Shown: positions 3,833 through 32,616 of the stretch, piece after piece | Layout: each line of letters starts with the position of its first letter | How positions within the stretch are numbered: the first letter of the stretch is position 1 | Virus record (IMG/VR): IMGVR_UViG_3300032311_000963 | Span: 1-33,527 of that record | Reading direction: 5' to 3' (one strand) | Source: a virus | DNA: 33,527 nucleotides | The notes under the pieces: generated by a model | Told to the model about the DNA's origin: nothing | What the model saw: only the letters and a program-made list of their open reading frames with translations | Database searches by the model: none | Position numbers and translations under genes: made by a program

Positions 3833-4125
3833 TTTTTGACCTTTCGTTTGGGAGTCTCGATGTCGCCATCCGCGATGACCGGCCTGCGGAGGATCGCTTC
3901 GATGTGAAGGATCACGCCTCGCTGGCCATCGCGGAGCGCAGCGACCACGGGATTGAAATCATAACCAGGCAGGAAGACCTGTGAGTCGGTGGCAAATTGC
4001 GTCTTGAGATCGGCGATGACCGCAGCGCCTTCCTTGCCGCCAAAGACCCGGTGGTAGGCATTGGTCGTCTTCTGGCGCTCGCGTTCGCGCCGGAGGGCAG
4101 CGGCTTTGTCTTCTGGGGCCATCAT
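3829..4125 (-). CDS. Bbp19-family small phage protein
   Basis: This 98-residue protein has an N-terminal charged helix (APEDKAAALRRERERQKT), then AYHRVFGGKEGAAVIADLKTQF and a GQRGVILHIEAIL segment. I recall this AYxxVFGxxEGxxVLxDL...GxRxVxLxI pattern from the Bbp19 family named after a phage BPP-1 gene, usually next to the portal gene as here. Function is unknown; a head or packaging accessory role is likely. The start at 4125 overlaps the portal stop (ATGA). Confidence 0.75.
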   Translation of the reverse strand: MMAPEDKAAALRRERERQKTTNAYHRVFGGKEGAAVIADLKTQFATDSQVFLPGYDFNPVVAALRDGQRGVILHIEAILRRPVIADGDIETPKRKVKK

Positions 4126-5792
4126 GCTTGTCCCATCATGCCGGGGAGCATGCCAGCGAGGGCAGAATCCTGCTTCACGCTGCCAGCCTTGCCGAGGGCG
4201 CTTGCAGCCTGCTCCATTTGCTGCGCCTGCATCTGCTGCTGGGCGGCTTGGGCGCGGGCTGCGCGGGTCTGGGCGACCATGTCCTCATCCATGAGCCAGC
4301 GGGCGGGGAGACCATCGTTGCGGGCCATGTCGCGGGTGATCTCGTCGAAATCGAAATTGTCGAGCATGTCCGGCTTGATCTGCACATAGGGCAGGAGCAT
4401 CTCACTGGTGCGGATGAATGCGGCGTTTTCGAGACTCTTGATCGCAAGCGCGATTCGGGAGTTGTAGGCAACATCCGGCTCCGGGATGACGCCGATCATT
4501 TGGAGCGCCTGCGGAGGTGGTGGGAACTTGCCAGCGCGGGCCAAGATCGCGAAGACCCGGCGCAGGAGCGGATTGAATAGCTCGGTCGTGAGGCGGGCGA
4601 AGGTCGGGGAGAATTGGATGAGCTTCTCGCTGGCGCGTTCGGCGACTTCGCGGGCAGTCATCTGCTTTTGGAGTTGGGCGAACATTTGGAAGAGGTCCAC
4701 ATGGAAGGCTTCGTTGATTGCCTTGCGTTTGTGTTCTGCACGCTCGACGCCGATGTCGTAGCGCCCGCCGGTTCCCCACTCTTTCGGCGTGGCCTGCGGG
4801 TTGTTCGGATCGAAATAGGTCACGCCACCGGCGCGGAGGTCGATGTCTCCATCGAACCCGGCAGGGATGAGGATGCGAGGGAACGCATGAATCTCGGCGA
4901 GCGAGTCGAGTTGCTTTTCAAGGAAGTTGAGTTGCTTGCACTCCGGCAGCGCGGTCCACGATGGCGAGTAGCCGTAGCACTCGGAGTTCTTCCACTTGAG
5001 GTAGCGAGTAACGAAAAACGGTTGCTCATCGAACCCGGAAGCAAGGAAGACATGCTTGCTCGCCTTGTCCACATAGACCGAGGCGTAGGGCTTGTTCTCA
5101 GCGTCTCGCTTGCCCATTTCAATCTCACCCGGACCACGGGGAGCGATGAGATGGACGCAGGCAAACTTGCGGTTGGAGTTGGGCTTCTCCAGTTCCTTCC
5201 GCATGGCGTCAGTGATGTTCTCGATGCCGAACTTGAGCGCGGCCTGCCGTGCGGTCATCTCATACTCGCGGGAGAGCGTGTCCACATAGCCTTCGTCGTC
5301 TTCCGAGATCGCGAAGCATCCAAGGTCGAGCTTGGTGAAGTTGAGCGAATTAACCTTGCCGCTTTCGACGAGGATTGCTGCCGTGCCGAATGCGCCACGG
5401 TCGAGATAGAGTTCGTGGATTTCGGTGTAGAAGTTGGACCGGCTGAGTTCGGCCTGCATGACCTCGGTGCAGCGTTTGAACCATTGCTCGATCTCGTCCT
5501 CGCTCTCCATCTCCTTCGGTGGCTCCAGCGAGAACCAGCGGCTTTCCAGTGGGGTCATCCATGAGAGTTGACCATTGGCCAGAACAAGATTCGCCCGGAC
5601 GGCGGTGGCATCGAAGAGTTGCGCCTCGTCGTCTGTGGTGGGCGAGGTCGTCTGCGTGAACATCGTTGCCTTGCGAGGCATCACATACTTCGCGATGTCC
5701 TCCCAGAGCGACTCCCATGTTGCCCGCTGATGGACCATCTCAGCGTGTCGCTGAAGAACCTTGTCGGCGAGTTCGGGATTCTTTCCGGTCAT
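4122..5792 (-). CDS. Portal (head-to-tail connecting) protein, T7 gp8 type
   Basis: This 556-residue protein forms the dodecameric ring through which DNA is packaged and ejected. It shows the start of the podoviral connector family (recalled as Head_tail_con): RATWESLWEDIAKYVMPRK, LFDATAVRANLVLANGQLSWMTPLESRWF, then YLDRGAFGTAAILVE, a YLKWKNSECYGYSPSW segment (clip/wing region), and near the C-terminus QKQMTAREVAERASEKLIQFSPTFARL and ELFNPLLRRVFAIL. A Gln/Ala-rich tail (QAAQQQMQAQQMEQAAS) follows. Length is typical. ATG 5792 is two bases after the boundary element and has no Shine-Dalgarno, which is unusual for a major head gene. Confidence 0.93.
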   Translation of the reverse strand: MTGKNPELADKVLQRHAEMVHQRATWESLWEDIAKYVMPRKATMFTQTTSPTTDDEAQLFDATAVRANLVLANGQLSWMTPLESRWFSLEPPKEMESEDEIEQWFKRCTEVMQAELSRSNFYTEIHELYLDRGAFGTAAILVESGKVNSLNFTKLDLGCFAISEDDEGYVDTLSREYEMTARQAALKFGIENITDAMRKELEKPNSNRKFACVHLIAPRGPGEIEMGKRDAENKPYASVYVDKASKHVFLASGFDEQPFFVTRYLKWKNSECYGYSPSWTALPECKQLNFLEKQLDSLAEIHAFPRILIPAGFDGDIDLRAGGVTYFDPNNPQATPKEWGTGGRYDIGVERAEHKRKAINEAFHVDLFQMFAQLQKQMTAREVAERASEKLIQFSPTFARLTTELFNPLLRRVFAILARAGKFPPPPQALQMIGVIPEPDVAYNSRIALAIKSLENAAFIRTSEMLLPYVQIKPDMLDNFDFDEITRDMARNDGLPARWLMDEDMVAQTRAARAQAAQQQMQAQQMEQAASALGKAGSVKQDSALAGMLPGMMGQA

Positions 5793-9603: not shown

Positions 9604-10063
9604 CGGTTGGGGTTGCGGTGCGGGCGGCAAGGATGCGCTCGTTGAGGGTCGTGAGCCGGTCAGCCGGGAGCGGCTGCGAGGAAGTCATGGGGTTGAGCCA
9701 TCTCACCTTTAGACGCACCTTGCCGTCCTCTCCCTCCTCGGCCTCGATGGTGATCCGGCAGAGCTTGCCGACCCATGGCGCTTTTCCAGCGTTGAGCGTT
9801 GGGATGTCCCACTCCCGGCCAAATGCCTCGTCAAGCGTCTTCGCCGTGCGCTCTGCGGCCTTCTCCGAGAGCCAGCCCTGCCAGACAGCTTCCCGTCCGT
9901 GCTGGTCGCCTTCGTCCTCGATGAGGAGCGGGATGCGGATGAAATCCGAGCCTTTGGTTGTCGTGCCAAGCCATCCGTTGCCGGGTTGCTTCACTTTCGC
10001 CGTGTATTTGCCTTCGGCGGTCACATAGCGGTTCTGTTTGTCTGCGAGTTCGTGTGTTGTCAT
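9584..10063 (-). CDS. Probable ssDNA-binding protein (DUF669-like)
   Basis: This 159-residue protein is predicted to be mostly beta: AEGKYTAKVKQPGNGWLGTT, SDFIRIPLLIEDEGDQHG, VGKLCRITIEAEEGEDGKV and RLKVRWLNP look like successive strands of an OB-like fold. The pattern recalls phage DUF669-type proteins located between helicase loader and recombination genes, thought to bind single-stranded DNA. The start at ATG 10063 overlaps the helicase-loader stop (ATGA). The ssDNA-binding role is inference from fold impression and operon position; an acidic C-terminal tip typical of SSB is present only weakly (TDDEISF). Confidence 0.6.
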   Translation of the reverse strand: MTTHELADKQNRYVTAEGKYTAKVKQPGNGWLGTTTKGSDFIRIPLLIEDEGDQHGREAVWQGWLSEKAAERTAKTLDEAFGREWDIPTLNAGKAPWVGKLCRITIEAEEGEDGKVRLKVRWLNPMTSSQPLPADRLTTLNERILAARTATPTDDEISF

Positions 10064-10761
10064 TTTTCTGTGTTGATGATGTTTGTGAACTCCGATAACC
10101 GCCGGAGGATCGGCTCGCCCCTGTCGGACGAGAGCATTTTTCTGAGGTCGCCCTTGGCGGCGTTGGCCGTCCAAATGATGGGCAGTTCGTGAGAGGATCG
10201 GTGTTCCAGCAGGTCGAAGAGTTCCAACTCGCTGCGCTCGGTCATTTTCTGCTTGCCGAGGTCATCGAGGAGGAGAACCTTCGTCCGGCGGCAGCGGGTC
10301 AGCGTGTCCTCGGCCATAGCTTTAGCCTGGTTGTTGTCGTGCCACTGGTCGGCACAGGCTTTCGCAAATCCCGTGGCGGTGATGCCAAAGACGCGAAGTC
10401 CGCTGAAATGCAGACGCTTGAGCAGTATCCACGCCGCTCGCGTCTTTCCGCAGCCCGCTGGGCCGATGAGACCGATTCCGACCGGATTATACTGCCATGC
10501 CTCGCATTCGCGCAGGAAGGCCGCAGGAATGCGTCCGAGGTCGCTTTCGCGGTAGAGTGGTGGACAGATGGCATTGAACGCCTCCTGCCGCCTCTCCTGC
10601 TCTTCCATGGCCTGCTCCTGTTGGAGCTTATCGATGCGTTTGAGGTCGCACTCGTCGCAGAGGATTTGCACATTCGGGAAGTAGCGGATGAAATCCTCGC
10701 TCGGTGAGGAGACCGAGTTGAAGCACGATTCGCTCGCGCAGGCTTGGACCGTGGCTACCAT
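10060..10761 (-). CDS. DnaC-like replicative helicase loader (AAA+ ATPase)
   Basis: This 233-residue protein starts MVATVQACASESC at ATG 10761, preceded by a strong AGGAGG in the end of the upstream gene, which it overlaps by seven bases. The N-terminus has two Cys pairs (CASESC and CDEC, residues about 8-40), a possible zinc site. The ATPase core has Walker A GPAGCGKT, Walker B KVLLLDDLGK, a SELELFDLLEHR helix, a sensor-1 segment PIIWTANA and an arginine-rich end EPILRRLSEF. DnaC-type loaders place the host DnaB helicase at the phage origin; the neighbouring initiator candidate and iterons fit this. Confidence 0.87.
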   Translation of the reverse strand: MVATVQACASESCFNSVSSPSEDFIRYFPNVQILCDECDLKRIDKLQQEQAMEEQERRQEAFNAICPPLYRESDLGRIPAAFLRECEAWQYNPVGIGLIGPAGCGKTRAAWILLKRLHFSGLRVFGITATGFAKACADQWHDNNQAKAMAEDTLTRCRRTKVLLLDDLGKQKMTERSELELFDLLEHRSSHELPIIWTANAAKGDLRKMLSSDRGEPILRRLSEFTNIINTEK

Positions 10762-11426
10762 TGCTCGACCTCCTCGACCTTGGCTGGCGCAAGCGCCGGT
10801 TCGACTTTGTTGAGCCAGTTGATGACAAACTGCCGGGTCTTCTTGCGTCCGGGGCGGGCAAGAAGCCAAGCATCCATCTTGCGACTTTCCGCATCCACAT
10901 CGATGCCCGGATAATGCCGCCGCATCTCAGCCCAGAACTCCTCATCGAGCAGGTAGGTCTTTTTGCGATCAGCGCCTACTTCTTCGTTAGAAGAAGTATT
11001 ACTCTTCTCTTCTCTTCTCTTCTCTGGTAACGGTTTTTCTAACGCTTGGGGCGTTACATTTGTAACGCTCGGAGCGTTACATTTGTCACGGTGTTCCGCG
11101 ACTCGCCTGTTGCAAACCGCACGGGCCTTGGAAGTTTGGCCGTTGTGCCGATCAAAGCGCGGGACTTGAAGCGAGCCGGAGCGGACTTCAAGCCAAGCTA
11201 CTTTGCGGAGCGCATCGGAGAAACCCGGCTGGTGGGTGATACGGTCGAGAACGGATTCTGTAACGGTGAGAGCGTTACCGGAGATGGATTGCTGGTCACA
11301 CCACGCCCAGAACCGGATGAGCTTTCCCACCACGGCGTCCGGGTCGATGTCCAAGATTGTCGCCATGGTGTAAACCTCCGGCTTGTCCGGCGTGGCGTGT
11401 TCCACTTTGATCCAGTCACCGGCCAT
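10755..11426 (-). CDS. Phage replication initiator candidate (lambda O-like position)
   Basis: This 223-residue protein begins MAGDWIKVEHATPDKPEVYTM; residues 1-90 resemble the winged-helix region of phage replication proteins (DPDAVVGKLIRFWAWCDQ, VLDRITHQPGFSDAL, VAWLEV). A low-complexity linker follows (LEKPLPEKRREEKSNTSSNEE), then a C-terminal helical domain (EEFWAEMRRHYPGIDVD, QFVINWLNKVEPAL) that could bind the loader. The gene contains iteron-like repeats, a hairpin and a polypurine tract in its middle, as lambda's origin lies inside O. It overlaps the DnaC-like gene. Initiator function is inferred; residues contacting DNA cannot be named. Confidence 0.7.
   Translation of the reverse strand: MAGDWIKVEHATPDKPEVYTMATILDIDPDAVVGKLIRFWAWCDQQSISGNALTVTESVLDRITHQPGFSDALRKVAWLEVRSGSLQVPRFDRHNGQTSKARAVCNRRVAEHRDKCNAPSVTNVTPQALEKPLPEKRREEKSNTSSNEEVGADRKKTYLLDEEFWAEMRRHYPGIDVDAESRKMDAWLLARPGRKKTRQFVINWLNKVEPALAPAKVEEVEQW
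10977..11086. other. Putative replication origin inside the initiator gene
   Basis: Three elements cluster. A perfect 9-bp hairpin TACTTCTTC-GTTA-GAAGAAGTA lies at 10977-10998. A tandem CTCTT tract (nearly five copies, polypurine on the minus strand) lies at 11002-11025. Two adjacent 23-bp direct repeats (11041-11063 and 11064-11086, two mismatches) each hold an inverted repeat AACGC-n5-GCGTT followed by ACATTTGT. The repeat length is not a multiple of three, so it is not a protein repeat. A further related inverted repeat is at 11260-11278. Confidence 0.6.
11260..11278. repeat. Third iteron-like inverted repeat
   Basis: GTAACGGTGAGAGCGTTAC has the same length and half-sites as the iterons at 11041-11086 (TAACG...GCGTTAC with the same spacing) but lacks the ATTTGT tail. 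It is about 175 bases upstream in the same gene and may be an outlying initiator binding site. Confidence 0.5.
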
Positions 11427-13352: not shown

Positions 13353-14191
13353 TATTTGACCTCCTTCACTTCTGCCAGCACGGTTTCGAGGAAGCGTGGA
13401 GTCGATGAGAGGATACGGTTGCGGTAGCTCTCGTCCGTCATGTCGCGGAATGTCTGCCCCGCCATGATCTGCCCCTTGGCAACGAGGAAGGTATTGACCT
13501 TTGCCTCATGCTCGAAAATGCGCTTCTCCAGCGTGACCGCCCATTCCGGCTCCTCGGCTGCGGTATCAATTGATACCACCTCGGCCTCGATGGCCTTCGT
13601 CTCAGTCGCAGGAACTGCAACAGGCTCGACCACTGGTTCGGCCTTCACTTCCACGACCGGCTCCACCTTGACCGCCCGCGCAGGGCGAGGCGCGTCGAAC
13701 TCACCGACCTCCTCCGGTGTATACATCCCATTGAGGACCGCAGGGAATGTCGCCCGGACGCCCTCGCTGATCACCCGCGCCCGCAGCATCTGCCTTGGGT
13801 AGGATTTCCAGTTGTCCTTTCCGCCCAGCCCAGCCGCCTTGGCCCGCGCCATGTCCCAGTCGATCCGGAGCGATCCGCCCGCCGGATGCGTAAAGGTCGC
13901 GCTCACCTTCTCGTTCGTGTGGTCATGCCACTCGACGCGCCCGCCGCTCTGCTGGAATCTTGCCAGCATTGAATCCGCCTTCAGCGAGGCGCGGCCTTGG
14001 ATGATGTGATAATCAGAGGCCACTGATCCGGGGTGACGCCCTTCGGCGGTCGCCACGATCATCAGCGCCAGAGCCTGGTCTGGTGTTTTCATGCCGAAGA
14101 GACCAGATTTCACGATGGCCGAGGCCATCACCTGCATGTCGCCGAGGGCGACTTGTGTGTTGACTTGTGTAGTCAGTTGTGTGTTACTCAT
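13352..14191 (-). CDS. RecT-type single-strand annealing protein
   Basis: This 279-residue protein has a core at residues about 15-170: a MASAIVKSGLFGMKTPDQALALMIVA helix pair, GRHPGSVASDYHIIQGRASLKAD, MLARFQQSGGRVEWHD, ATFTHPAGGSLRIDWD, and KDNWKSYPRQMLRARVISEGVRATFP with MYTPEEVGEF. I recall this set from phage proteins annotated as RecT/Bet-like recombinases. A repetitive Val/Glu/Pro linker (VVEVKAEPVVEPVAVP) follows, then a helical tail. It is paired with the exonuclease by a one-base overlap. No Shine-Dalgarno is seen before ATG 14191. Confidence 0.78.
   Translation of the reverse strand: MSNTQLTTQVNTQVALGDMQVMASAIVKSGLFGMKTPDQALALMIVATAEGRHPGSVASDYHIIQGRASLKADSMLARFQQSGGRVEWHDHTNEKVSATFTHPAGGSLRIDWDMARAKAAGLGGKDNWKSYPRQMLRARVISEGVRATFPAVLNGMYTPEEVGEFDAPRPARAVKVEPVVEVKAEPVVEPVAVPATETKAIEAEVVSIDTAAEEPEWAVTLEKRIFEHEAKVNTFLVAKGQIMAGQTFRDMTDESYRNRILSSTPRFLETVLAEVKEVK
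13562..13577. repeat. Perfect 16-bp palindrome GGTATCAATTGATACC
   Basis: Inside the recT-like gene. Its half-site GGTATCA equals the end of the boundary element (TGATACC). A 16-bp palindrome has roughly even odds of arising once by chance in a window this size, so only the half-site match makes it interesting. Confidence 0.45.
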
Positions 14192-17732: not shown

Positions 17733-20700
17733 TCACTCTTCGCTGGTGGCGTTTTGGTAGAGGCCGACAACCGGCTTGATCATGTTGAGGAGGACGGCGG
17801 GCGCGGCCATTGATGGCGAGAGTGCCATCGAGCGGAAGATGTTGTTCCATTCTTTGAGCATGGCGTCTGGGTCGTCGAGGTCGAAGGCGTCTTCCAGATT
17901 GTTCAGCGCACGCACGCCCTCCTCCATGGAAGAGAGTAAGGGATTTTGCGTGGTGCTGTTAAAAGTTTTTTGTCCGGTGAGCTTGGAGATCGCCAGCTCG
18001 CCGCCCGTGCCTGCAAAGAAAAATCCTTGGAGCGGTGCGAGGAGCATGGCTTTGGCAAAACCGCCGGGGTTCCAGATTTCATCATCGTCATCGTCAGAAA
18101 AGGCATCGCGGAAGGCGCTGGAAACCACATGGGAAAGGACGGCCATTGTTTCGATGGCAAGGATTCGACGAATGTGTGTGCCTTTGTCACCACTGCCGGT
18201 GGCCAGCCCGCGAGCAGCGTCAGCAAGGATCGCGGTCTTTAATCGGGCATCTGACATGAACAAGAAAAACATTTTTGCCATCACATTCCCGTTATTTTCA
18301 ACGATGCTTTTCTGGCCGAAGCTGACCGGCTGCGCGAAGCGGTAGATGGCTTGGCTGGCAGCGTCGAGAGCGGTTTGCTTGGCGAGATTTTCCGGCATGC
18401 CTGCGGCAATAGCGTCATTGAGGTTGGCTCGGTAGACAATGGCACTGGAGATCGAGGTCGCAGCAGAGTCGAGCCAGTTGATCGGTGTCATTGATGCCTC
18501 GGCAATCTTCGCAGCGAAGTTTGGTTTCCCGGCATAGCGTGAGAATAGGAATCGAGCCTCGGCGGTTGCTCCACCTTGGAGTCGGTTCTGGATGGCATTG
18601 GATTCCCACACGGTCTGAATGTCCTCCGTGATTGTCGCTGGGTTGGAGAGTGCGGAGACGATTTGTCGCATGTCGAGGGCGAGGCCGAAGCGGATCGTGT
18701 TGTCCAACTGCATGGCGAGGGTCTTCAAGCTGAATCCCAGCGAGGAGACGGCCTTGCCGGATAGGACCGTGCCGAGGATTGGATTCAGCCAAGCAATTTC
18801 TTTGGCCTTGTTGCCGCCTCGTTGTTCCAGTTGATCGGCCCAGAGTTCGGCACTTTTGAGGACTCCGTCTCCGTGCGCTTGCTTGAGGGATTCGCGGACA
18901 TCCGGGGAGGAGAGGAGTGCGCGGAATTCGCGGGCGAGTTCGGCGAAGTGGACCCAGTGCGCTTGCTGGGCGATGTGGCCTTGCGCCACGGTGAGAGCGT
19001 CTTCCGGCGCGATCTTGGCCGAGTGGGTGACACGGGATTTTGCAAAGCCCGGTGTCGTGCCAGTAGCTGTGGGCGACCCGTCGAGGCCGATGTCCTTTGA
19101 GTCTTTGGCGTTGAGGAAGCGGGTGGGGGCGTAGTTTTTGACCTGCGGCATGGTCATTCCGAACATGCGTGAGTAGACCGGATTCACGATGCCTGCGCCT
19201 TTGCCGTAGAGGCTTTGCAGGTAGCTCACAACAGATCGGGAGACGGGGTCGTTGACGAGCGCCTTGAGGTCGGCTGCGCTTTCATCGGTCCAGCCTTCCT
19301 TCCGCATCTTGATTTGGACATCCGGTTGGTTCCATGAGAGCAGGAGTTGGATGGCCTTGGCGCGGGACATGTCGAGCTTCACATCCTCGCCACGGAAGAT
19401 GACGCGCTTGATGGTTACGAATTCTTTTTGCGTGTCTGCCGGGAGTGCGGCGAGTTCGTTGCGGAGGGTTTCCACATCGGCGTCGGTGAGCTTGCTGCGG
19501 TCTGCCATGCCGGTGACGATCTTTTGAGCGAGATCGATGGCGATGCGCTCGTCCTTCACCTTGCGGCCTTCAAGGTAGGCGACCGCATTTTTCTGATCTC
19601 CCTTGAGCCAGAGCATGGCATCGCCTGCGGACATGTTGGCGGCTTTCGCGCCTTCCCGGACGGCATCGAGGATGCCTTTGCCATCGCGGATTTCCGAGGA
19701 TTGCGCGGCCATGTCGGCCTTGCGGAGGCGCTCCGAGAAGTTCGCGGCGATCTCTGGCGGGAGCATGGCGGTGACGAACTGCTCAAAGCTGGCGTGGTCG
19801 AGGAGGTAGTTGTTCCCGACCTCGGCGATGCGTTGCATGAGTCCCTTGTCGGCGAAGCGTTTTTTGGCAGTGCCTTTACCGAGCCATTCGATGGTCGCTG
19901 CGGCCCTTGATCGTTGCTCGTCGATGCGGGCTTGCTCCTTGATGCGCCATGCTTCGCGACCCATTTGCAGTTGGCCTTTGAGCCAGTCGAGTCCCTGCGC
20001 GAGCGTCTCGGAGGAGCGGTTGTCGAGGTCGCCAAAGGTGTTGAGGATCGACCACTCCTCGGAGAGCGCGGAGATGTCTTCGGCGGTGGCGTCCGGGTTG
20101 GCCAGCGCGGCCTCGATCTCGGCCATGCGCTTGGGCGTGGCCTCGTCGTCGAGAAGTGTGGCGCGTTGGACCATGTCGGCGAACTTCTGCGTCTCGGCTC
20201 CGAGCGTGGATTTGCGGACTCCGTTGTCACCGGCCTTCGGGCGGGATTGCTTCACGGCCTTGGTGATGGCCTCGGTGTATTCGCGCACCAGCACCTTTTC
20301 GAGTTCGGTGTCGATCTTCTTGATGCGGTCGCGGAAGAAGTCGGCGATGGCTTTGTCGGCCCGCTTGGTGGAGAGGTTTTCGGTTGCTGTGTAGCCGGGT
20401 GGAAAATCCACTTTCTTTCCGGCTTGCCCGATATTTAAACCTTGATCCATCCATGCGCTGATTAGCGCCCCCTTCATCCCACTGACTTCACTGATTTTCA
20501 CCCCGTCCTTGAAGACATCGTGCGGGGCGATCCCGGCGAGCTTGGTGTAGCCCCCCACCCTGCCGCGCACTTCGGGCGGGAGGACAGACATGATGCCGTC
20601 GAGTTCGCCGAGACCTTGCAGGATTTGCGTGCGGCGGATTTGCGAGTCGTCGGAGCCGGTGTCGGCCATCGCGGCGAGTTCGTCGGAATTCCAAGCCATG

Positions 20701-23700
20701 ACCTTGGAGAATTTCTGCTTCGCCCGTTGGTAGACTTTGAGCCGCTCGTCCGGGCCTCGGTTCATGCCGCCGAGGGCGCGGTTCACCCGGTCGATCTCCG
20801 ACTGGCTGGCTATGGAATAGTTTACTCCTCCGTCTCTGCCTGCTCCGGTTGGTCGAACTCCAGAAAGTAGACCTCCTCCAGAGACATCTCCACTCCCATC
20901 TTCTTGTAAGCCGCTTGAGAGTGCTTGAGATTCTCGATTGTCGTTGACTCCAGCCCATACTGGGCTTGGAATTCTTCCTCCGACAAGAGTGTTTCGGGCG
21001 CTGTCATCAGTTAAATCTTTCCATGTTTTTTGTGATTTTGCAAGGGTGGCGGCATTTTTGGTTGCTGCCGGATAGACCAGCCGGATTGCCTCCCATGTGA
21101 TGGATTGCATCTGGCGTGGCAGTATTCCGCGATCCGCTGCGGCTTCGCGGTAGGCGTCGAGATAGAGATGATAGACTCCAGAGATGCCAAGCACCTCGCT
21201 GCCATTCATGCCCGATCCGAAATTGTGTCCGACCTCCGTTGCCTTGGCCCCGTATGGCATGAGGTGCGCGGCTGCGACAGCATGGGTGTCGATGGTCGCG
21301 TCTCCATATGGAGTGTTCGGAGCGACGATGTTGTTGTAGAAGTTCCGAACCTTGTGTTCATTCCCAAGGTTGTCGCTGATATTTTTCAGCGACCCGTCCT
21401 TCATTATGCGGACAGCTTTTTCGATTTCGTTGGTTGATCCCCATCCATTCTTGGAAAGAGCGCCATCATCGTTGGTAGCCATGCCGAGCCGGTCGCCTTC
21501 CGGTGAGAGGTTCCGGTAGTTGCGACCAAATGTGACCTGCGCCAAGACGCGAATTCCCCACCCTTGAAGTGTTGGCGTGGCATCAAGCTGGCGAATTGTT
21601 TTCCCAATGACCTGTTCAACAATTTTCCTGCGCTTTTCTTTTTCAAGTTTATCCAGCGCCTTGTTGTATTCTCGACGCTCGGCGGTTTGTTCCTTGGTTT
21701 CTCCGTCTACTTTTTTGCGTTTCTGTTTATCGGCTACGGTAGCCGCTTCGATGATGCCTTCGATCTCGGCGCGGACGAGGGATTCTTCCAACACGACATC
21801 CTGCGAGTTCGTCCAGAGTTCCATGAACTGCTCGGCCTGCGCCACATTCATGAACCAATCCTTCTGCGGCGAGAACACGGCGATCACGCCGGACGCCTGT
21901 TCGACCGAGGCTTGGAACTGACTGCCCATTTCCTTGGCGATGCGGTTCGCTCCGTCATACCAATGCGTGGCGCGGGCGCGGAATTCCTCCGGGAAGGCGT
22001 CATGCAATGCCAGCAGGTTTTTCTTGAACCAGTTGATGAGCTTGCGGCGTTTTTTCTTGGGGTCTTTTTCCGAGAGGATGTTTTTCGGAAGGTGCGCGTA
22101 GTTCATCTTCTCCATCTGCTTGGCAAGGAGATCGTCTGGAACATTGTCGCCGGAGACATTGGAATCCTGCGGCGTGTTTTTGGGAACTTTGGCTGTGCCG
22201 AGCTTGGCTGTTCCTACGCGAGATGCATCGTCCTTTTCACTGACTTGGCTGATGGCATTGCGAGCGATGCCGATGCTGTAGTTGATGCTTGGGCTTCTTG
22301 GATTGAACCTCTGCGAGAGCGGGATCACATTGCCTGCGTCGTCGTAGGTGACGGGGTCAATCAGCTTGCGGTTGTTTTTCGTGTTTTTGTAGGCGTAGTC
22401 CTTGCCGTCATCCTTGCCCCATTCGCGAATATCGTTCCCATCCCAGAAGAGTGTTTCAGCCGGAACAGATTCATTGATAATTCGATATTCACCTTCACCG
22501 AAACGAGACTCTCCGTGATTTACAGCGTAGGTTTTTGATGGAGTCACCCAATCTCGGTTCTCCAACTTCGCGCCTTTGATGTCATTTGGGACGGCTCGAA
22601 AAACTGTGACAAATGCTTTTTTGCCTTGCTGGATTTTATCCATAGCGGCACGGATCGCCTTAAATGCCTCCATTCCAGCCTTGTCTTTATATGAGTAATA
22701 CTGCGGTCCAACACGGGGATCGAAATAATCGTCCGGCTGAATATGAACACCTCGCGCAACTTGAACAAGCGAAGCGTCAGCGTCTCCATTCCTTACCTCT
22801 TCATCGGCTCCTGCCGGGCCGGATGGCGCTGTATGTGAATCTCTAAAATCTCCATGAGGCAAATACCCCGCTGATTTCGCCGCCTCGTCCACCATCTTCT
22901 GGACGGTCTCCATGTCTCCACTCTCGACGGCTGCGAGGTAGTCGGCGTCCTGTTTTTGCCCAATGCTATAGTTGGTCGCGCCGGTAGCTGGACCAGCGAG
23001 GGCTTGCGAGGCGGGGATGCGGTTGCCGTTTTCCTCGGTGATCTTGATGAGGTTCTCGTCGAAGACGACATAGTTGTATGTGCCTTCACCATCCGAGCGA
23101 CTGCCGCCGTCGAGGTAGCGGATGCCGGGGATGCCTAATTTAAGAAGTTTTTCTGATGCTTCTTTAAGGGAAGATGTAACAGGTCTATACGGCGATTGGC
23201 CTCCCATTAAATTGTAAAAAGCCTCTCCTTTAATTCCTTTCAGTAGGGACTCCATGTAGAACCCGCTTTCCACCCCTGCGCTTTTTACCATACTTGGCCA
23301 AAGTGGAGATTTGCGGACGGCATTCATTACCTTCTCACTCTGCTCGCTCAATGGCTTGTCCCAATCGAGCAGGTCTTCCGGTTCGACATCGAGTTCGACG
23401 GTGTAGAGGTTGCTTTCGGGTTTAACCCATTTCCAACCGTCTTCCTTCCATTTCTCAAGCAGTGAGCGAACCTTTGCCGAAAACCTAACTGCAATTGGAT
23501 TGTCACTGTTTTTTGCAGCAAAGGCTTCTTGATCCGCCATTGCCTTTGCAAAGTCGCCATTGTGACGGTTTAGATAGTCGGCAGCCAAAGCGTCGTCTGA
23601 AAAATCCATTTCCGGAAACTTCACACGACCAGAAGGCGTTTCAAACTCTGGAGCCATTCCTTTTTGATAGGTTTCAGCGACATCACGATTTTCAGCAAAA

Positions 23701-26700
23701 TAAAGCCCCCAGCCATAAGCCTGCGCTCCCTCGCCTGTGCCGATCTTCGCGGTGCTGAATTTGTCCACCTTGTGCGGCGTTCCGTGGTGTGCGGCAATGC
23801 TGTAGTTTGCGGGGCCGGTGATCGTGGCGTTGCTGGCGCGGATGGACGGAGTATCAGTCGAAACTGCATTGGTTCGGGAGCCGATGGAGAAATCCATGAG
23901 CATCTGCCCGCCATCGGTGATGATGTCTTTGCTGACCCTGTTGCTTGCGGTATCGACACGCGCCTGCTGGTTGAGGCCAACCGAGTCGGCGAGGAGGGTT
24001 TCAAAGTTGGCGTCCACTTTGCCTTCGGCGACGAGGCGCTTGAGGTTGTAGGCGCGGCGGTAAATGTCTTTGACGATGATGGCCATCCGGCGCAGGAATC
24101 CACGGAATCCTTCGGGAATCTGATTTTCGCGGATGCGTCCTGTCATGTAAGCCAAGGCGACATCGGAAAACGACTCGATGACATCGGTGTCGGTCTCGGT
24201 GCGGAGTGCTGGGCCGGTGTTGCGCTCGCTCTCGATGAGCGGGATGATCTGGTTGAGGTTCTCGCGGACCCAGTCCATGGTGATACGCCCCTCGGAGATG
24301 GCTCGCTTGAGGTTATCCTGCGAGAAGTCGCGAACGACTTTGTCGCCGGTTGCCCCGTCTTGAATTTGGATAATGGAGCGGAAGACTCCTTCCACCAGAG
24401 CGCCCTGGTTGCTGGCGAGGACAGGGAAGTTGGCAAGTTCGGCGGGTTCGTTGATGTCTTGGCCTTGGGAACGAACGGTCTCGAAAAGGTTGTTGAGGTT
24501 CTGCTCGGTGGGGTTGGCCTCGTAGTCGGTGAGGAGGGTGCGCGGAGCGTTGCTCAGAAGGAATTTTTGGACATCCTCGCCGCGACCGGCGGCTTCATTC
24601 ATTTGGTTGAAAAATGAGATAGACTCAAAGATGCCACGGGTCGTGCCGGTGATTTGGGTGCGGAGGAGTTCGCTGAGTGCTATTTGTGCGGTCTGCTCAT
24701 CTGAGGTGGTGTATTTGACATCGCCCTTCGGATCGCGGATGACAAACTTTTTGGAACCATCTGCGAGGGTTTCGCGGGTGAGCGTGTGTGTGTTGGGGTC
24801 TTCCTGCTGGTCTTTGGCGGAAGCTATTTTCCCCTCCATGTAGGCGACCCCTGCTTTGACATTCTCCGGGGTGAGCTTGCCGAATTCGGACTGGAAGTTC
24901 TGCTGCACCTCGGCGAGGTCTTTGCCGTCCTCGATTTTTTTGATGGTGGCATCGTCCATGCCTGTCATGCGGTATCTATCTTGGCGCTCCTCAAATTGGG
25001 CAAAGCGTTTGTTGTCTGCAAAGGTGGACACACCTGTTCCAAGAAGGATTGTTGGAAGCGATGCAGCGAGGACATCGAGGCGTGATCCGCCCCATTTCTC
25101 AAGGATGGGTTGCCACTTCACATCCGGCACATCGGCTCCGAGCGCCTCGGAGACATCCTGCACCAGTGGGGTGGTGAGGTCTTGAGCGCCTTCGACAAAT
25201 TGCTCTCCTGTGGCAGCGGCCAAGAATCGGACGCCTGCGCTGCCAGCCTTCCCCACGCGAGCAGGGTTGCCGATCTTACGCATGAGTTTTTCAAAGGCCG
25301 GGAGCTTTCCGAAGATTGCCTTTGCGCCGGTGCGTTCCAGACCGGCTTGGACGGCTGCGCTCACGCTGCCGATCTGCACCGCTTGGTCCACACTCATGCC
25401 TTGCTGGCGAAGCTGGTTGTATTCGTCGGAAAACATGGCTGCGCCTGCGATGTAGGGGCCGACGACCGGGACAAGTGCCGTGGCGGTGTAGGCCAGACCC
25501 TGCGGCGAACCGTAGGCCATCGCTTCCATGAAGCCGAGGAACCCACCCTTGTTGATTTTTTCAATCGGGTCGAACTGGTTGTCGGCCACGCTTTGGAGTT
25601 CGCGGACGACCTCGAAACGCTTGACCTTCTGGCGGGCTTGGTCGGCCTCGGCAGCGATCTCCTCCGGGGTAACCTTGCGGAGGTCGGCTTCGTCGTAGAA
25701 GGCACGGTTCGCGAGCGGGATTTTTTCTCCCGTGGATTTTGAAATGTAGTAGTCCGGCGGGGATGTCTTATCCTCCAGCATGCGGAGGTCGGATTCTGCG
25801 GCCATCTCCTGCGCGGTGAGCGCCCCGGTGCGGACCATGTTGAGAGTGCGGCTCCAGCTTTCTCCCCACTGCTCCATGAATTTCTTCGGGTCTTGACCGG
25901 CCTTCTGCGCTCCAAGCACGACCGAAGCGTAGGCCCGCTCGCGCACAGGCTTGGGCATGGAGGCGAGGGTGTCCACCATGGAATCCATTTCCTCTTGGTT
26001 CTTGGGGTTGGTCTCCCCTGCCCGCTCGGTATCGCGCCCGGTGACTGCGGCGAGGTGGTCGTAGACCTTCTTGAGAGGTTCGGCGTAGTCGCGGAGCATG
26101 CCCTCGGTCTCGGTGTGGAAGGCTTGCGCGGATTCCAAGAGCGGAGCTTCCCAGCCGGGTGGCAGTTTCTTGATCGAATCGGCGTTCTTGGTCTTCCAAG
26201 TCTCGACGAGTTTCGGCACATCCACGGGATCACCACCGCCAATGGAGTCGAAGAGGGAAAGAGCGATGTCGCCGGGGATTTGGTTTGCCGCCTCGGACAC
26301 CTCGTTGCGGGCGTCCATGCCTTGCTTGATGAGGTCAAAGGTTTCCTTCTCGGACATTCCTTTTTTGCCGACCACCGACTCGGTCCACTTGTCGCGGAAG
26401 GATGAGTAGATGTCTTGCTGTTCTTCCGGGGTCTGGTCGAACTGCGAAGCGATGAACTGCCGGTTGGCGATGTTGTAGCGGGAATCCTCGTCGAAATCCT
26501 GCAACCCGGCATCGTTCACATAGCCATCGAAATCCGAGTAGATTTTGTTGAGCGTGTCGAACTGCTCGCGTTTCTGATCGGCATCTTTCTGGTCGGCCCA
26601 GAGACGAAGCGCCTCGGCGCGGGATTCGCGCTCCGCTCCCTCCAGAGTGTCAAATTCGTTGTAGTATCGAGTGGCTGTATCGTCGTCGATGAGTTCGACC

Positions 26701-26723
26701 GGCGTAGGTGTGACAGAGAGCAT
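17733..26723 (-). CDS. Giant internal virion / ejection polyvalent protein (2,996 aa)
   Basis: The gene starts at ATG 26723 (TAATG overlap) in the place of T7 gene 16. Residues about 1-940 are helical with hydrophobic stretches near 390-440 and 550-565, typical of DNA-ejection proteins. Residues about 973-1245 hold an ART-PolyVal-like ADP-ribosyltransferase (AAHHGTPHK, AYGWGLYFAENRDVAETY, GIRYLDGGSR). About 1255-1475 hold a second ART-like domain (VFRAVP, WVTPSKTYAVNHG, NDIREWGKDDG, suggesting an R-S/T-E triad). About 1481-1900 match an HhH-glycosylase-like phage family I recall as DUF7178 (HDAFPEEF, SPQKDWFMN, KVRNFYNNIV, TIDTHA). The C-terminal 1,000 residues are helical with hydrophobic ends. 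Five [N/D][Y/F]SI[G/A] motifs mark boundaries. No lytic transglycosylase motif is seen. Confidence 0.85.
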   Translation of the reverse strand: MLSVTPTPVELIDDDTATRYYNEFDTLEGAERESRAEALRLWADQKDADQKREQFDTLNKIYSDFDGYVNDAGLQDFDEDSRYNIANRQFIASQFDQTPEEQQDIYSSFRDKWTESVVGKKGMSEKETFDLIKQGMDARNEVSEAANQIPGDIALSLFDSIGGGDPVDVPKLVETWKTKNADSIKKLPPGWEAPLLESAQAFHTETEGMLRDYAEPLKKVYDHLAAVTGRDTERAGETNPKNQEEMDSMVDTLASMPKPVRERAYASVVLGAQKAGQDPKKFMEQWGESWSRTLNMVRTGALTAQEMAAESDLRMLEDKTSPPDYYISKSTGEKIPLANRAFYDEADLRKVTPEEIAAEADQARQKVKRFEVVRELQSVADNQFDPIEKINKGGFLGFMEAMAYGSPQGLAYTATALVPVVGPYIAGAAMFSDEYNQLRQQGMSVDQAVQIGSVSAAVQAGLERTGAKAIFGKLPAFEKLMRKIGNPARVGKAGSAGVRFLAAATGEQFVEGAQDLTTPLVQDVSEALGADVPDVKWQPILEKWGGSRLDVLAASLPTILLGTGVSTFADNKRFAQFEERQDRYRMTGMDDATIKKIEDGKDLAEVQQNFQSEFGKLTPENVKAGVAYMEGKIASAKDQQEDPNTHTLTRETLADGSKKFVIRDPKGDVKYTTSDEQTAQIALSELLRTQITGTTRGIFESISFFNQMNEAAGRGEDVQKFLLSNAPRTLLTDYEANPTEQNLNNLFETVRSQGQDINEPAELANFPVLASNQGALVEGVFRSIIQIQDGATGDKVVRDFSQDNLKRAISEGRITMDWVRENLNQIIPLIESERNTGPALRTETDTDVIESFSDVALAYMTGRIRENQIPEGFRGFLRRMAIIVKDIYRRAYNLKRLVAEGKVDANFETLLADSVGLNQQARVDTASNRVSKDIITDGGQMLMDFSIGSRTNAVSTDTPSIRASNATITGPANYSIAAHHGTPHKVDKFSTAKIGTGEGAQAYGWGLYFAENRDVAETYQKGMAPEFETPSGRVKFPEMDFSDDALAADYLNRHNGDFAKAMADQEAFAAKNSDNPIAVRFSAKVRSLLEKWKEDGWKWVKPESNLYTVELDVEPEDLLDWDKPLSEQSEKVMNAVRKSPLWPSMVKSAGVESGFYMESLLKGIKGEAFYNLMGGQSPYRPVTSSLKEASEKLLKLGIPGIRYLDGGSRSDGEGTYNYVVFDENLIKITEENGNRIPASQALAGPATGATNYSIGQKQDADYLAAVESGDMETVQKMVDEAAKSAGYLPHGDFRDSHTAPSGPAGADEEVRNGDADASLVQVARGVHIQPDDYFDPRVGPQYYSYKDKAGMEAFKAIRAAMDKIQQGKKAFVTVFRAVPNDIKGAKLENRDWVTPSKTYAVNHGESRFGEGEYRIINESVPAETLFWDGNDIREWGKDDGKDYAYKNTKNNRKLIDPVTYDDAGNVIPLSQRFNPRSPSINYSIGIARNAISQVSEKDDASRVGTAKLGTAKVPKNTPQDSNVSGDNVPDDLLAKQMEKMNYAHLPKNILSEKDPKKKRRKLINWFKKNLLALHDAFPEEFRARATHWYDGANRIAKEMGSQFQASVEQASGVIAVFSPQKDWFMNVAQAEQFMELWTNSQDVVLEESLVRAEIEGIIEAATVADKQKRKKVDGETKEQTAERREYNKALDKLEKEKRRKIVEQVIGKTIRQLDATPTLQGWGIRVLAQVTFGRNYRNLSPEGDRLGMATNDDGALSKNGWGSTNEIEKAVRIMKDGSLKNISDNLGNEHKVRNFYNNIVAPNTPYGDATIDTHAVAAAHLMPYGAKATEVGHNFGSGMNGSEVLGISGVYHLYLDAYREAAADRGILPRQMQSITWEAIRLVYPAATKNAATLAKSQKTWKDLTDDSARNTLVGGRIPSPVWAGVNDNRESQALSSGLQEDGSGDVSGGGLLSGVRPTGAGRDGGVNYSIASQSEIDRVNRALGGMNRGPDERLKVYQRAKQKFSKVMAWNSDELAAMADTGSDDSQIRRTQILQGLGELDGIMSVLPPEVRGRVGGYTKLAGIAPHDVFKDGVKISEVSGMKGALISAWMDQGLNIGQAGKKVDFPPGYTATENLSTKRADKAIADFFRDRIKKIDTELEKVLVREYTEAITKAVKQSRPKAGDNGVRKSTLGAETQKFADMVQRATLLDDEATPKRMAEIEAALANPDATAEDISALSEEWSILNTFGDLDNRSSETLAQGLDWLKGQLQMGREAWRIKEQARIDEQRSRAAATIEWLGKGTAKKRFADKGLMQRIAEVGNNYLLDHASFEQFVTAMLPPEIAANFSERLRKADMAAQSSEIRDGKGILDAVREGAKAANMSAGDAMLWLKGDQKNAVAYLEGRKVKDERIAIDLAQKIVTGMADRSKLTDADVETLRNELAALPADTQKEFVTIKRVIFRGEDVKLDMSRAKAIQLLLSWNQPDVQIKMRKEGWTDESAADLKALVNDPVSRSVVSYLQSLYGKGAGIVNPVYSRMFGMTMPQVKNYAPTRFLNAKDSKDIGLDGSPTATGTTPGFAKSRVTHSAKIAPEDALTVAQGHIAQQAHWVHFAELAREFRALLSSPDVRESLKQAHGDGVLKSAELWADQLEQRGGNKAKEIAWLNPILGTVLSGKAVSSLGFSLKTLAMQLDNTIRFGLALDMRQIVSALSNPATITEDIQTVWESNAIQNRLQGGATAEARFLFSRYAGKPNFAAKIAEASMTPINWLDSAATSISSAIVYRANLNDAIAAGMPENLAKQTALDAASQAIYRFAQPVSFGQKSIVENNGNVMAKMFFLFMSDARLKTAILADAARGLATGSGDKGTHIRRILAIETMAVLSHVVSSAFRDAFSDDDDDEIWNPGGFAKAMLLAPLQGFFFAGTGGELAISKLTGQKTFNSTTQNPLLSSMEEGVRALNNLEDAFDLDDPDAMLKEWNNIFRSMALSPSMAAPAVLLNMIKPVVGLYQNATSEE
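23850..23864 (-). promoter_or_regulatory. Boundary-element-like copy inside the giant gene
   Basis: Reads GTTTCGACTGATACT on the minus strand, two mismatches from the consensus, in frame as V-S-T-D-T at residues about 954-958, between the DFSIG (about 944) and NYSIA (about 973) motifs. Whether it acts at DNA/RNA level or is chance is open. Confidence 0.4.
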
Positions 26724-29278: not shown

Positions 29279-29692
29279 TCAGTTCAAGGTTTGCACAAGG
29301 TGGATCATTTCCGTGTCTGTGCGTTGAAAACCGGTCTTCTCATAAACCCGCGCCAGCGACTCCTGTTTGCATGTGGTCAACATGACAGAGTATCCAAAGG
29401 ATTTTGCCTGCCCTTTGAGGAATTCCACAATGGCCTTAATCGACCTGTAGACGGATTTCGGTTTGGCTCCGGGGTTGGAAACGACCCACTCCATCATGGA
29501 AACGCCGATGCTATTGTCCATGTAAAGCCATCCTGCGGCAACGGGACCACCATCTAAATTTGCCACGATTCCAAGTTTTGGAAGAACGGAGATTGGAACG
29601 GCATTCCATCCGTGACCTATCCACCACTCTTTCACAATGGCGTAATCCGTCTCTGGATCAAACATTTTGAGAATTGGGAAAATCTCACTCAT
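29279..29692 (-). CDS. GNAT-family acetyltransferase
   Basis: This 137-residue protein has the GNAT outline: an N-terminal DYAIVKEWWIGHGWN, beta strands GIVANLDGGPVAAGWLYMD and VSMMEWVVSN, a PGAKPKSVYRSIKAIVEFLK segment where acetyl-CoA pyrophosphate binds, SVMLTTCKQESLARVYEKTGF as the final strand-helix, and a C-terminal strand. Many podoviruses carry such a gene between tail and internal virion genes. The substrate is unknown; modification of a virion or host protein is possible. It overlaps the tail gene by eight bases. Confidence 0.78.
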   Translation of the reverse strand: MSEIFPILKMFDPETDYAIVKEWWIGHGWNAVPISVLPKLGIVANLDGGPVAAGWLYMDNSIGVSMMEWVVSNPGAKPKSVYRSIKAIVEFLKGQAKSFGYSVMLTTCKQESLARVYEKTGFQRTDTEMIHLVQTLN

Positions 29693-32615
29693 TACCGAAA
29701 GTATCCCACACGGGTTGAAGGGCGATGACTGCCATTGGATAAGGGGCAGTTTGCCTCAGAGTGACATCTGCGTCGATTCCAAACGCACCGGCCAAGATCA
29801 TTTTCTGGTCGCCGGTGGTGAGCGTGTCGGCGAGGGCATACCACTCGCCGTTGTTCGTGCGGATCTCCCCTCCCCGGCTCTTGTAGAGGCGGGCGATGAT
29901 TTTGTGGATGCGCTTCTTGCGGCCTTGGGAGGAACCGTCTTCAAGGTCCATGTCGAGCTTCATGGGCGTGAGCGTCGATGTGTAGGGCAGGCCGACATAG
30001 CCTGCGGCTGCGACTGGGACGGTGATTGATCCGCTGGCCACGGTGCGGGTCACGGGGGCTTGGCCGTCTTGCATGACGGTGACGGTCTTGCCATTGAAGC
30101 GGTCGAGGCCGGAGATCGTGCGGCCTGCTGCGTTAGAGGCAAAAGCGGACCACCCATCGAGGTAGCGCCAAGAGGCTGTTGTCTGGTCATCGAGGTGCTT
30201 GCGCCACAAAAGCGGGAACCGCTCGATGGTGCGGTAGTCCTGCCCGGAGACGGTGCGCTTGACGACCATCCAGACTTCGTCCTCCGTGCCGTTGCCGTAG
30301 ATGGTGGCGACCGATTCAACCAGGGCATTGTCGGCGATGGTGTGTCGATGCCAGCCGACGACCTTCTGGTCGCGCTCGTAGGTCATGGCGATGAGTGTGC
30401 CGTCTCCGCGCACGCACCAGAGGACGGCATCCGGTTGCTGCTGGTAGGCGATCTCGACAATCTCGCCATTGGTGATGTGTTCGGCAAGCAGGGTGAGGTC
30501 TGGCGCGACCCATCCGTCCTTGTTGAGTTCGTAGACCAGCTCGCGCACTTTGCGTCCATTGCGTTGGACGAACAAGAGGACATCGTTGACCAGAGCGGCT
30601 CGCATGTATTTTGACCCGTAGCTCGACTGGCGGCTGGCTTGCACATTGGTTGCCGAGAGCGAGGCTGAGGAGTCGGCGCTGCCGATGGTCCACTCGTCGC
30701 CGGATGTGCCGATAAGGAGTTGCGACTGGCTATACATCCAGTTGATGCGGTTGCCTTCGGAGGCGGCGAGGGTGAATTGGACCGCATCGCTCGCGGTGAC
30801 GCCGGTCTTAAAGTTCTCGAAATTGTCAATCTGGCTACACCAGATCGTGTTCGGCTGGGTGGCTGTGCCGCCAAAGCACAGGCGTTGTTCGTGCATGGCG
30901 ACCGAGCGAGGGTAGCCGCGAGTGGAAGAGAATGCGCCGAACGCCCAGAACTTGGTATTGCGCTGGTTGCGCGGCCCCTCGCCGAGCCACTTGTCCACAT
31001 TGATTTGCTCTGCGGCGACGATGGTCGCGATGCCGCCGGTCACCTTGGTGTCGGTTTCCAATCGGGCTTTCTGGACAATGGTTCCAGACACAGAGGCCCA
31101 GTCCAAGATACGGATTTTGAATCCACAGCGTTCGGATTCTGTGCCGCTGGAAATAATGTTGCGGTCTGCTGCCACGGCATATTCCTTCACGATCTCCATC
31201 TTCGTGAGGTTCTCCGGGTAAATGTCGAGGTATCCAGTCTGGGCGTTTGCTCCCACATCGTATGTGTAGGTGTGCGTGCCGGTGACGGTGATGGAAGCTA
31301 AGTGCGTAGCGTAGTTGTTTGTTGATAGCCCATCTCCAACACAGATTCTGTCTCCATTGTTCCACCCATGGTATGGGTGATAGACGCTCACTACCGTTCC
31401 GCTTCGCGTGCCAGTAGCCACAATACGCCCAGCGGAGAAGACATCCGATGGAACTCGCAGGATTTGCACGGTGGCCGTCCAAGTGCCGGATGTGCTGAAA
31501 TCCCACCCGCCCTCCACAGCCAGAGTTGATGACACATAATTTCCAGTGATGACTTGTTCGGCGTAGAAATTTGATTTCTGCCACTTGAGTTCCACTTGTG
31601 AACCCACGGTAGAAGCCGGGAAAAGTCCAGACCCGGCGCTCACCGAGTATTTGCCCATTTCATTGAGCGGAATCGGGAATTGCGACCATTTGCCAGCAGC
31701 TTGATCCACGCCAAAGTTCGACCCGGCGCGGTGGGCGCTCATGGCGTAGTAGTAGAATGCCTGCCCGCTTTGGTTTTGGGCCGTCCATTTGGCTGCGGTG
31801 AATGTGGCGTCCGTGTTGGCCGTGATGCACTTGTAGGCGATGCTGCCGGAGAGGACGATGTCGCCCACTGCGTAAGCGGTGCTTGCGGCCCATGCCGGAG
31901 GACGCACATAGTCTCCGAGGATGTAGTTTGTGCCAGCGACCCAAGTGTCCGGGTTTGGGTAGATGTTCACGACCTGCTCTGTGGCGTTCTGGTCTTGGAG
32001 CGGAGGGTAGTCAAAGACCACTGGCGCAAAAGTCCAATTGTTGTCGGCAAGGCGAGAGAGCTTGTGTGGCAGGTAGTTCGCATGCGCGAAATACATGATG
32101 TCATTGATCTGGGAAAATTGGATTTCGCGCAGGTCAGCGGCGGCGTAGGGAGTGGGAATCTCAAGGATCGACTGCGCCACCCAGCGGCCTGCGGCGAGGT
32201 CGGTGGCGAATGTGCCTGCGGTGTGGGCAACAACGCAGTAGTAGGTCGTGCCGCTGGAGGAAACATAGTTGCCGACTGCGTAGATGTTCCCGGTCGCCCA
32301 CGCGGCAGGCGTGGCGGCGTTGACCGGCGCTCCTGTGGAGGGAGACCAGAACCTCATGTAGCCTGCCCCCATTTCGATGACGAACCGGGTGGTGGTCGAG
32401 AAGTTGAATCCGATCAAGCGGGTCTGGCTTGTGGCCGACTTGGTCGTGCCGCGAAACTCCGTGCCGGGTCGGCGGATGACGCCTCCGTATGGCAGGATTT
32501 GGAAGTTCTCCAGCGTGCGGCAGGCGCTGCGGTATTTCTCCAGACTCGTCCGGGCGTCGATGAAGGGCGAGACTTCACCGGCGTTGAATGAGGGGTAGAA
32601 ATCGAACTTCGGCAT
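29685..32615 (-). CDS. Large tail-tube / nozzle protein (T7 gp12-like position)
   Basis: The chosen start gives 976 residues beginning MPKFDFYPSFNAGEVSPFID, followed by LEKYRSACRTLENFQILPYG and GVIRRPGTEF, a start shared by a family of large podoviral tail proteins I associate with tail tubular protein B. The remainder is beta-rich, with repeated Trp/Gly/Tyr carbohydrate-binding-like inserts (WVAGTNYILGDYVRPPAW, STAYAVGDIVLSGS, GNIYAVGNYVSSSGTTY) and NTIWCSQIDNFENF, typical of this family. The start at 32615 is preferred over one at 32651, which would overlap the upstream gene by 35 bases. The protein likely forms the tail nozzle. Confidence 0.83.
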   Translation of the reverse strand: MPKFDFYPSFNAGEVSPFIDARTSLEKYRSACRTLENFQILPYGGVIRRPGTEFRGTTKSATSQTRLIGFNFSTTTRFVIEMGAGYMRFWSPSTGAPVNAATPAAWATGNIYAVGNYVSSSGTTYYCVVAHTAGTFATDLAAGRWVAQSILEIPTPYAAADLREIQFSQINDIMYFAHANYLPHKLSRLADNNWTFAPVVFDYPPLQDQNATEQVVNIYPNPDTWVAGTNYILGDYVRPPAWAASTAYAVGDIVLSGSIAYKCITANTDATFTAAKWTAQNQSGQAFYYYAMSAHRAGSNFGVDQAAGKWSQFPIPLNEMGKYSVSAGSGLFPASTVGSQVELKWQKSNFYAEQVITGNYVSSTLAVEGGWDFSTSGTWTATVQILRVPSDVFSAGRIVATGTRSGTVVSVYHPYHGWNNGDRICVGDGLSTNNYATHLASITVTGTHTYTYDVGANAQTGYLDIYPENLTKMEIVKEYAVAADRNIISSGTESERCGFKIRILDWASVSGTIVQKARLETDTKVTGGIATIVAAEQINVDKWLGEGPRNQRNTKFWAFGAFSSTRGYPRSVAMHEQRLCFGGTATQPNTIWCSQIDNFENFKTGVTASDAVQFTLAASEGNRINWMYSQSQLLIGTSGDEWTIGSADSSASLSATNVQASRQSSYGSKYMRAALVNDVLLFVQRNGRKVRELVYELNKDGWVAPDLTLLAEHITNGEIVEIAYQQQPDAVLWCVRGDGTLIAMTYERDQKVVGWHRHTIADNALVESVATIYGNGTEDEVWMVVKRTVSGQDYRTIERFPLLWRKHLDDQTTASWRYLDGWSAFASNAAGRTISGLDRFNGKTVTVMQDGQAPVTRTVASGSITVPVAAAGYVGLPYTSTLTPMKLDMDLEDGSSQGRKKRIHKIIARLYKSRGGEIRTNNGEWYALADTLTTGDQKMILAGAFGIDADVTLRQTAPYPMAVIALQPVWDTFGNE

Positions 32616-32616
32616 T

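Follow-up and report, generated by a model that had tools for sequence, protein, structure and literature searches.

The locus analysed here raises the question of whether a group of short repeats inside a phage gene forms the origin from which that phage replicates. The stretch examined, called the window throughout, is an entire IMG/VR virus record of 33,527 bases, and the repeats lie in a gene for a putative replication initiator. An earlier note on this DNA had proposed an iteron-type origin within the gene, and this is the reading that the comparative evidence favours. We consider it very probable that the region is a phage replication origin inside its own initiator gene, acting through the mechanism proposed below.

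The initiator gene and its surroundings

The initiator matches the phrog_2509 'replication initiation protein' profile over residues 1–156 (E = 9e-58). The AF2 model of its N-terminal domain has a mean pLDDT of 79 and contains helices and a β-hairpin. The closest named relative, with 94% identity over this domain, comes from a Verrucomicrobia MAG (L351). The adjoining gene encodes a DnaC-like helicase loader; the listed ORF spans 10060–10869, with a probable ATG start near 10761. The features discussed below are as follows.

10060–10761, minus strand: gene for the DnaC-like helicase loader (phrog_50, E = 2e-19; IstB/AAA), directly downstream of the initiator gene
10755–11426, minus strand: initiator gene, 223 amino acids, encoding an N-terminal domain (about residues 1–115), a linker that carries the putative origin and a C-terminal domain
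10977–10998, minus strand: hairpin with a perfect 9-bp stem and a 4-nt loop
11002–11025, minus strand: polypurine tract of 24 nt with a 5-nt period, reading (AGAGA)n in the coding strand; candidate unwinding element
11026–11032, minus strand: half-site CGTTACC, abutting the purine tract and about one helical turn from the right arm of B2
11039–11057, minus strand: linker iteron B2, one outer mismatch, 23 bp from B1
11062–11080, minus strand: linker iteron B1, GTAACGCTCCGAGCGTTAC
11260–11278, minus strand: site A, the distant iteron (GTAACGCTCTCACCGTTAC), nt 149–167 of the gene (codons 50–56), in the coding sequence of the N-terminal domain

Elsewhere in the window a head-to-tail connector gene is found at 4122–5792. 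An ORF of 2996 amino acids (17733–26723, minus strand) combines DUF7178 with a weak ART-PolyVal match and is possibly a polyvalent protein, and one of 988 amino acids (29685–32651, minus strand) has two CBM_5_12 carbohydrate-binding matches and perhaps encodes a tail fibre or spike.

Palindromes, purine tract and hairpin in the window

The earlier note had described two adjacent 23-nt repeats with internal inverted repeats, a diverged third copy upstream, a perfect 9-bp hairpin and a 5-nt polypurine tandem, and each of these is present. The adjacent pair occupies 11036–11081 (11036–11058 and 11059–11081, 87% identical) and the third copy 11257–11279 (70% identical). Recast, the repeats amount to three palindromes of 19 bp with the form GTAACG-N7-CGTTAC, all inside the initiator gene. 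The note had placed every element in the linker-encoding part; this holds for B1 and B2 but not for the third copy, which falls in the conserved N-terminal domain.

In the whole window the 19-bp dyad occurs at these three positions and nowhere else. Counting both strands there are six matches, compared with 0.04 expected by shuffling, where the largest count in 100 shuffles was one. The tract is the sole purine or pyrimidine run of at least 15 nt in the 33,527 bases. A chance origin of the dyads and the tract is rejected by the shuffles, by the control windows described below and by the uniqueness of the tract in the window. In the direction of the gene the order is linker iterons, half-site, purine tract and hairpin, and the linker cluster is separated from site A by about 200 bp. 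The hairpin region folds with a z-score of −5.2, and the most A+T-rich local 60-mer ranks among the lowest 0.6% in GC content across the window. The 50 nt that begin with the tract have a GC content of 0.42, compared with 0.54 for nt 1–300 of the gene; it is lower in 287 of 291 genes. GC skew, which the earlier note had suggested as a check, did not bear out the proposal: the cumulative skew has its peak near 11 kb, with the sign that a terminus would give, and is confounded by the direction of the genes; we rejected skew as evidence on the origin.

Conservation and association with the N-terminal domain

Of the 80 loci obtained with a protein query, 39 encode the N-terminal domain. At least one dyad (at most one mismatch) is present in 38 of these 39, always in the gene. 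The palindrome is absent from all 41 loci that have the C-terminal domain of the window behind another N-terminal domain; contig ends truncate some of these genes, and the one tested (L009) is of the DUF1376 type. A scan of 2.9 million viral contigs (IMG/VR) with the exact 19-bp pattern GTAACGCTCNGAGCGTTAC gave 36 stretches, all in contigs that encode the N-terminal domain. The stretch lies in the initiator gene or 32 bp before it in 35 cases, and in the remaining one (L102) the gene is elsewhere in the contig. DNA scans with half-site plus tract point the same way: among the 236 matches listed, 229 have the N-terminal domain at most 1200 nt upstream, and the other seven comprise five places cut by contig ends, L102 and L202. 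In L202 a half-site and purine tract occur on the reverse strand near 1194 with no N-terminal domain in the 1193 nt upstream.

Two further gene sets (300 and 69 genes) include loci fetched by motif scans, and a protein-selected subset of 116 non-identical genes was considered separately. A tract (lenient pattern) is found in 111 of these 116. A GT..AC dyad with an N7 spacer occurs at most 45 nt before the tract in 97 of the 116, compared with seven of 1500 control windows from the 300-gene set. Among 80 genome relatives, with N-terminal domain identities of 34–94%, the canonical dyad is present in 49 and missing from 31. The earlier note had asked about conservation of iterons in relatives; the layout is retained in relatives whose N-terminal domains are as little as about 35–66% identical.

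The geometry is retained as well. Close dyad pairs in relatives are spaced by 23 bp in 11 of 14 cases. The half-site is usually preceded by a gap of 5 or 6 nt, which is why a single stretch matched when the gap was set at 4 nt. Site A keeps its position: among genes whose site is at nt 149, Asn51 is encoded by AAC in 51 of 51 cases and Val55 by GTT in 50 of 51. The hairpin varies in sequence among relatives and its stem recurs in a minority; of 62 genes tested against mononucleotide shuffles, 21 have p ≤ 0.05 and 14 have p ≤ 0.01.

Clade-specific arms, helical phasing and a relocated module

Most of the non-canonical relatives examined carry a dyad of their own in the same place, with arms GTCACG..CGTGAC, GTCCGC..GCGGAC, GTGACG..CGTCAC, GTCCCG..CGGGAC or GTAGAC..GTCTAC. 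A dyad of the GTTGCG type is found in L021. In L398 neither a canonical dyad nor one of its own was seen. The half-site follows the iteron arm of its own gene, with 5.1 of six positions matching in 30 non-canonical genes compared with 3.75 after permutation (0 of 5000 permutations, which ignore kinship). With 14 non-canonical representatives and a cruder parsing of the half-site the covariation is not significant (259 of 2000 permutations reach the value). Site A covaries in the GTCACG, GTGACG and GTCCCG clades (12/12 matches in most) and is absent in the GTCCGC clade. The tract varies less than the iteron. A purine run of at least 13 nt is present in 63 of the 80 genome relatives, and a clean run of this length is missing in 17, many of which are Pseudomonas copies. 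Measured from the start of the tract, the right arms fall at −7/−8 (half-site), −18/−19, −30/−31 and −41/−42, corresponding to steps of about 11.5 bp.

In L102 (IMGVR_UViG_3300038701_001112) about 9 kb separates the module from the initiator gene. The gene itself (contig position 4031 onwards) has one dyad and no tract-bearing module, and a DnaC-like frame is nearby (L126). The relocated module at about 13,690–13,900, outside the initiator gene, consists of three dyads, a half-site, AGAGAAGAGAAG and a C-run; among the ORFs listed there, one of 66 amino acids overlaps it.

These data bear on the alternative that the palindromes are operators, bound by this protein or by some other regulator to control how the replication operon is transcribed, and that replication starts elsewhere. 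Dyads of 19 bp do look like operators, and in the Rac 442/2 prophage and two relatives an extra copy precedes the gene by 32 bp. However, the copies otherwise lie deep in the gene (around nt 149 and at 340–390), the half-site and the purine tract belong to one fixed module, and in L102 that module is about 9 kb from the gene, so that we regard the operator explanation as unlikely. Its broader form, a genome-wide operator of a regulator, was rejected because the window has no copy of the dyad beyond the gene and the 80 genome loci have none, at up to one mismatch, beyond −300 to +700 of the gene.

Comparison with the lambda origin and with plasmid initiators

The earlier note had likened the locus to lambda O. 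The likeness holds for the order of elements in the annotated lambda ori but does not extend to the protein, which has no detectable sequence relation to lambda O (best BLASTP E = 1.1). Phage_rep_O (PF04492) likewise does not match the initiator at E ≤ 5, whereas lambda O matches it at 5.7e-36. In lambda the annotated iterons (39034–39118, nt 349–433 of gene O) are followed by AAAAGAAAAAAGAAAAGA, an 18-nt stretch that is the sole purine run of at least 10 nt in O, and then, by eye, by an inverted repeat. Common to lambda and to the predicted origin of the window are thus a location inside the initiator gene and the order iterons, purine tract, inverted repeat. The window shares further lambda-type traits: candidate initiator sites repeated within the gene, dyad symmetry in each repeat, an adjacent strand-asymmetric A+T/purine-rich tract and an adjoining helicase-loader gene, although the helicase-loading gene P that follows O is replaced by one for a DnaC-like loader. 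An array of at least four tandem iterons is not found: lambda has four, whereas the window has two in tandem, the half-site and one iteron about 200 bp away. The iteron GTAACG-N7-CGTTAC also differs from that of lambda.

PMC5043065 states that O binds the lambda iterons as dimers, that the A+T-rich region of lambda has nearly all purines on one strand and that the origin is activated by transcription. For lambdoid phages, PMC7466680 describes each iteron as an inverted repeat and two iterons plus the A+T-rich tract as enough for unwinding. Iteron plasmids, as treated in PMC5043065, have Rep initiators with helically phased sites beside an unwinding region, as in the candidate in the window; these bind plasmid iterons as monomers, in contrast to the palindromes found here inside the gene.

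The modelled N-terminal domain resembles winged helices in combining helices with a β-hairpin, but its fold gives weak matches to solved structures. The best Foldseek hit in the PDB has E = 0.37, VIA Z-scores to CRP and Rep initiators are about 4–5, and the similarity to the initiators 4pt7 and 5kbj is weak (Z about 4). Matches among predicted viral folds (BFVD) include a replisome organizer (E = 3e-3). No description of the motif, or of an origin in the phrog_2509 family, was found in an open-access part of the literature, which is weak evidence as most subscription journals lie outside it.

The same comparison speaks to the idea that the sites serve handcuffing, incompatibility or packaging and that the origin is nearby but distinct. 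With some 200 bp between it and the main cluster, site A could indeed pair DNA segments, but the lambda-like succession of iterons, tract and hairpin together with the adjacent loader gene suits an origin better, and we judge this idea very unlikely. The best reading is a lambda-type intragenic origin with an initiator of an unrelated family and few iterons, one of which lies some 200 bp off in a position within the gene that hardly varies, and with arms that step by about 11.5 bp in the direction of the tract. That two initiator families without detectable sequence relation share the layout suggests convergence or very deep ancestry.

Constraint at the level of DNA

The palindrome module is under constraint as DNA and is tied to the N-terminal domain of the initiator. 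In 69 non-identical genes, partly selected by motif, 142 dyads with at most one mismatch are present compared with 26.2 under within-gene synonymous shuffling; for exact dyads the numbers are 114 and 4.0. This agrees with the contention of the earlier note that the DNA rather than the protein is constrained. Its argument that 23 is not a multiple of the codon length was right in spirit. The 23-bp tandem spacing places neighbouring copies in different frames; exact dyads in the protein-selected set are distributed over the frames as 80, 31 and 1, so that 111 of 112 use the two frames without TAA, the third frame reading a stop. At site A the synonymous identity is 1.0 for Gly50 and Asn51, 0.99 for Ser54 and 0.96 for Val55, and mostly 0.2–0.6 elsewhere in codons 2–65. 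The longest purine run in nt 331–520 averages 21.1 nt, compared with 13.3 nt after synonymous shuffling (p ≤ 0.05 in 36 of the 69 genes).

That the DNA pattern merely mirrors conservation of the motif GNAxSVT and a charged linker, KRREEK, is extremely improbable: the residues encoded at site A are conserved too and most genes encode LPEKRREE at the tract, which itself mostly reads KRREEK, but the palindromes use two reading frames, synonymous positions at site A are nearly invariant, the tract encodes poly-Glu in L120–L123 and the L102 copy lies outside any initiator gene. Protein constraint as the sole cause is rejected by the synonymous shuffling and the two-frame use.

Proposed mechanism

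We infer that the initiator binds, the DNA is unwound and replication starts at this locus. The N-terminal domain, which may be winged-helix-like, would bind each palindrome as a dimer, and steps of about 11.5 bp would align the protomers on one face of the helix. A last, single protomer would occupy the half-site where it borders the (AGAGA)n tract, and the tract would then be strained and opened, perhaps aided by transcription through it. The C-terminal domain may recruit the adjacent DnaC-like loader and so deliver the host helicase. Site A, about 200 bp off, might act through looping or be a reserve or regulatory site.

Bacterial oriC has a DnaA-box/DnaA-trio arrangement. A tentative extension of the intragenic-origin reading is that the locus is a phage counterpart of it: a self-contained, swappable cassette of DNA-binding domain and origin with a two-part code. 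One part would be the clade-specific dyad, with GTAACG or one of the other arms given above, read by the N-terminal domain. The other would be the nearly clade-invariant (AGAGA)n tract, fed by the unpaired protomer on the boundary half-site, which might load onto the purine strand or stabilise an R-loop.

If the intragenic origin is real, the sequence would show where phages with this initiator have their origin, and would do so in prophages from the Pseudomonadota, Verrucomicrobiota and Planctomycetota. The change of iteron from clade to clade along with the N-terminal domain would offer a ready data set for a protein–DNA recognition code, and the near-invariant purine tract with its boundary half-site would make DNA opening by the initiator a directly testable question.

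Domain shuffling and the Rac prophages

The C-terminal domain of the initiator (about 80 amino acids; window 10755–11000) is found with 83–99% identity behind unrelated N-terminal domains in 41 viral loci (L009–L083). The joined domains are of the DUF1376 type and others, and each locus has its own low-complexity linker. There is strong domain shuffling at the linker.

Escherichia phage TL-2011b and the Rac-like prophage of strain 442/2 belong to the phrog_2509 family and have the same palindromes at similar gene positions as the window. Their C-terminal domains differ from that of the window, the one of TL-2011b being a DnaT domain, and in both TL-2011b and 442/2 GAGGAA repeats replace the GAGAAGAG tract. 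The extra iteron of Rac 442/2 and its two relatives (L120, L090 and L098) is an exact copy and lies about 193 bp from site A.

The YdaU protein of the E. coli K-12 Rac prophage has a C-terminal domain nearly identical to that of the 442/2 protein, and ydaV is adjacent. Its N-terminal domain, however, is DUF1376 (PF07120, 2.7e-26), which does not match the window initiator at E ≤ 5, and its gene lacks GTAACG-N7-CGTTAC, of which the 442/2 Rac ydaU has three copies. An equation of the 442/2 'Rac' ydaU with K-12 oriJ was dropped on these differences. Between nt 300 and 560 of the K-12 ydaU gene (L127), repeated TGTTCAAACA/TGTTTGAACA-like words are visible by eye, followed by a stretch rich in A and a C-run; these may represent an analogous origin of DUF1376 initiators.
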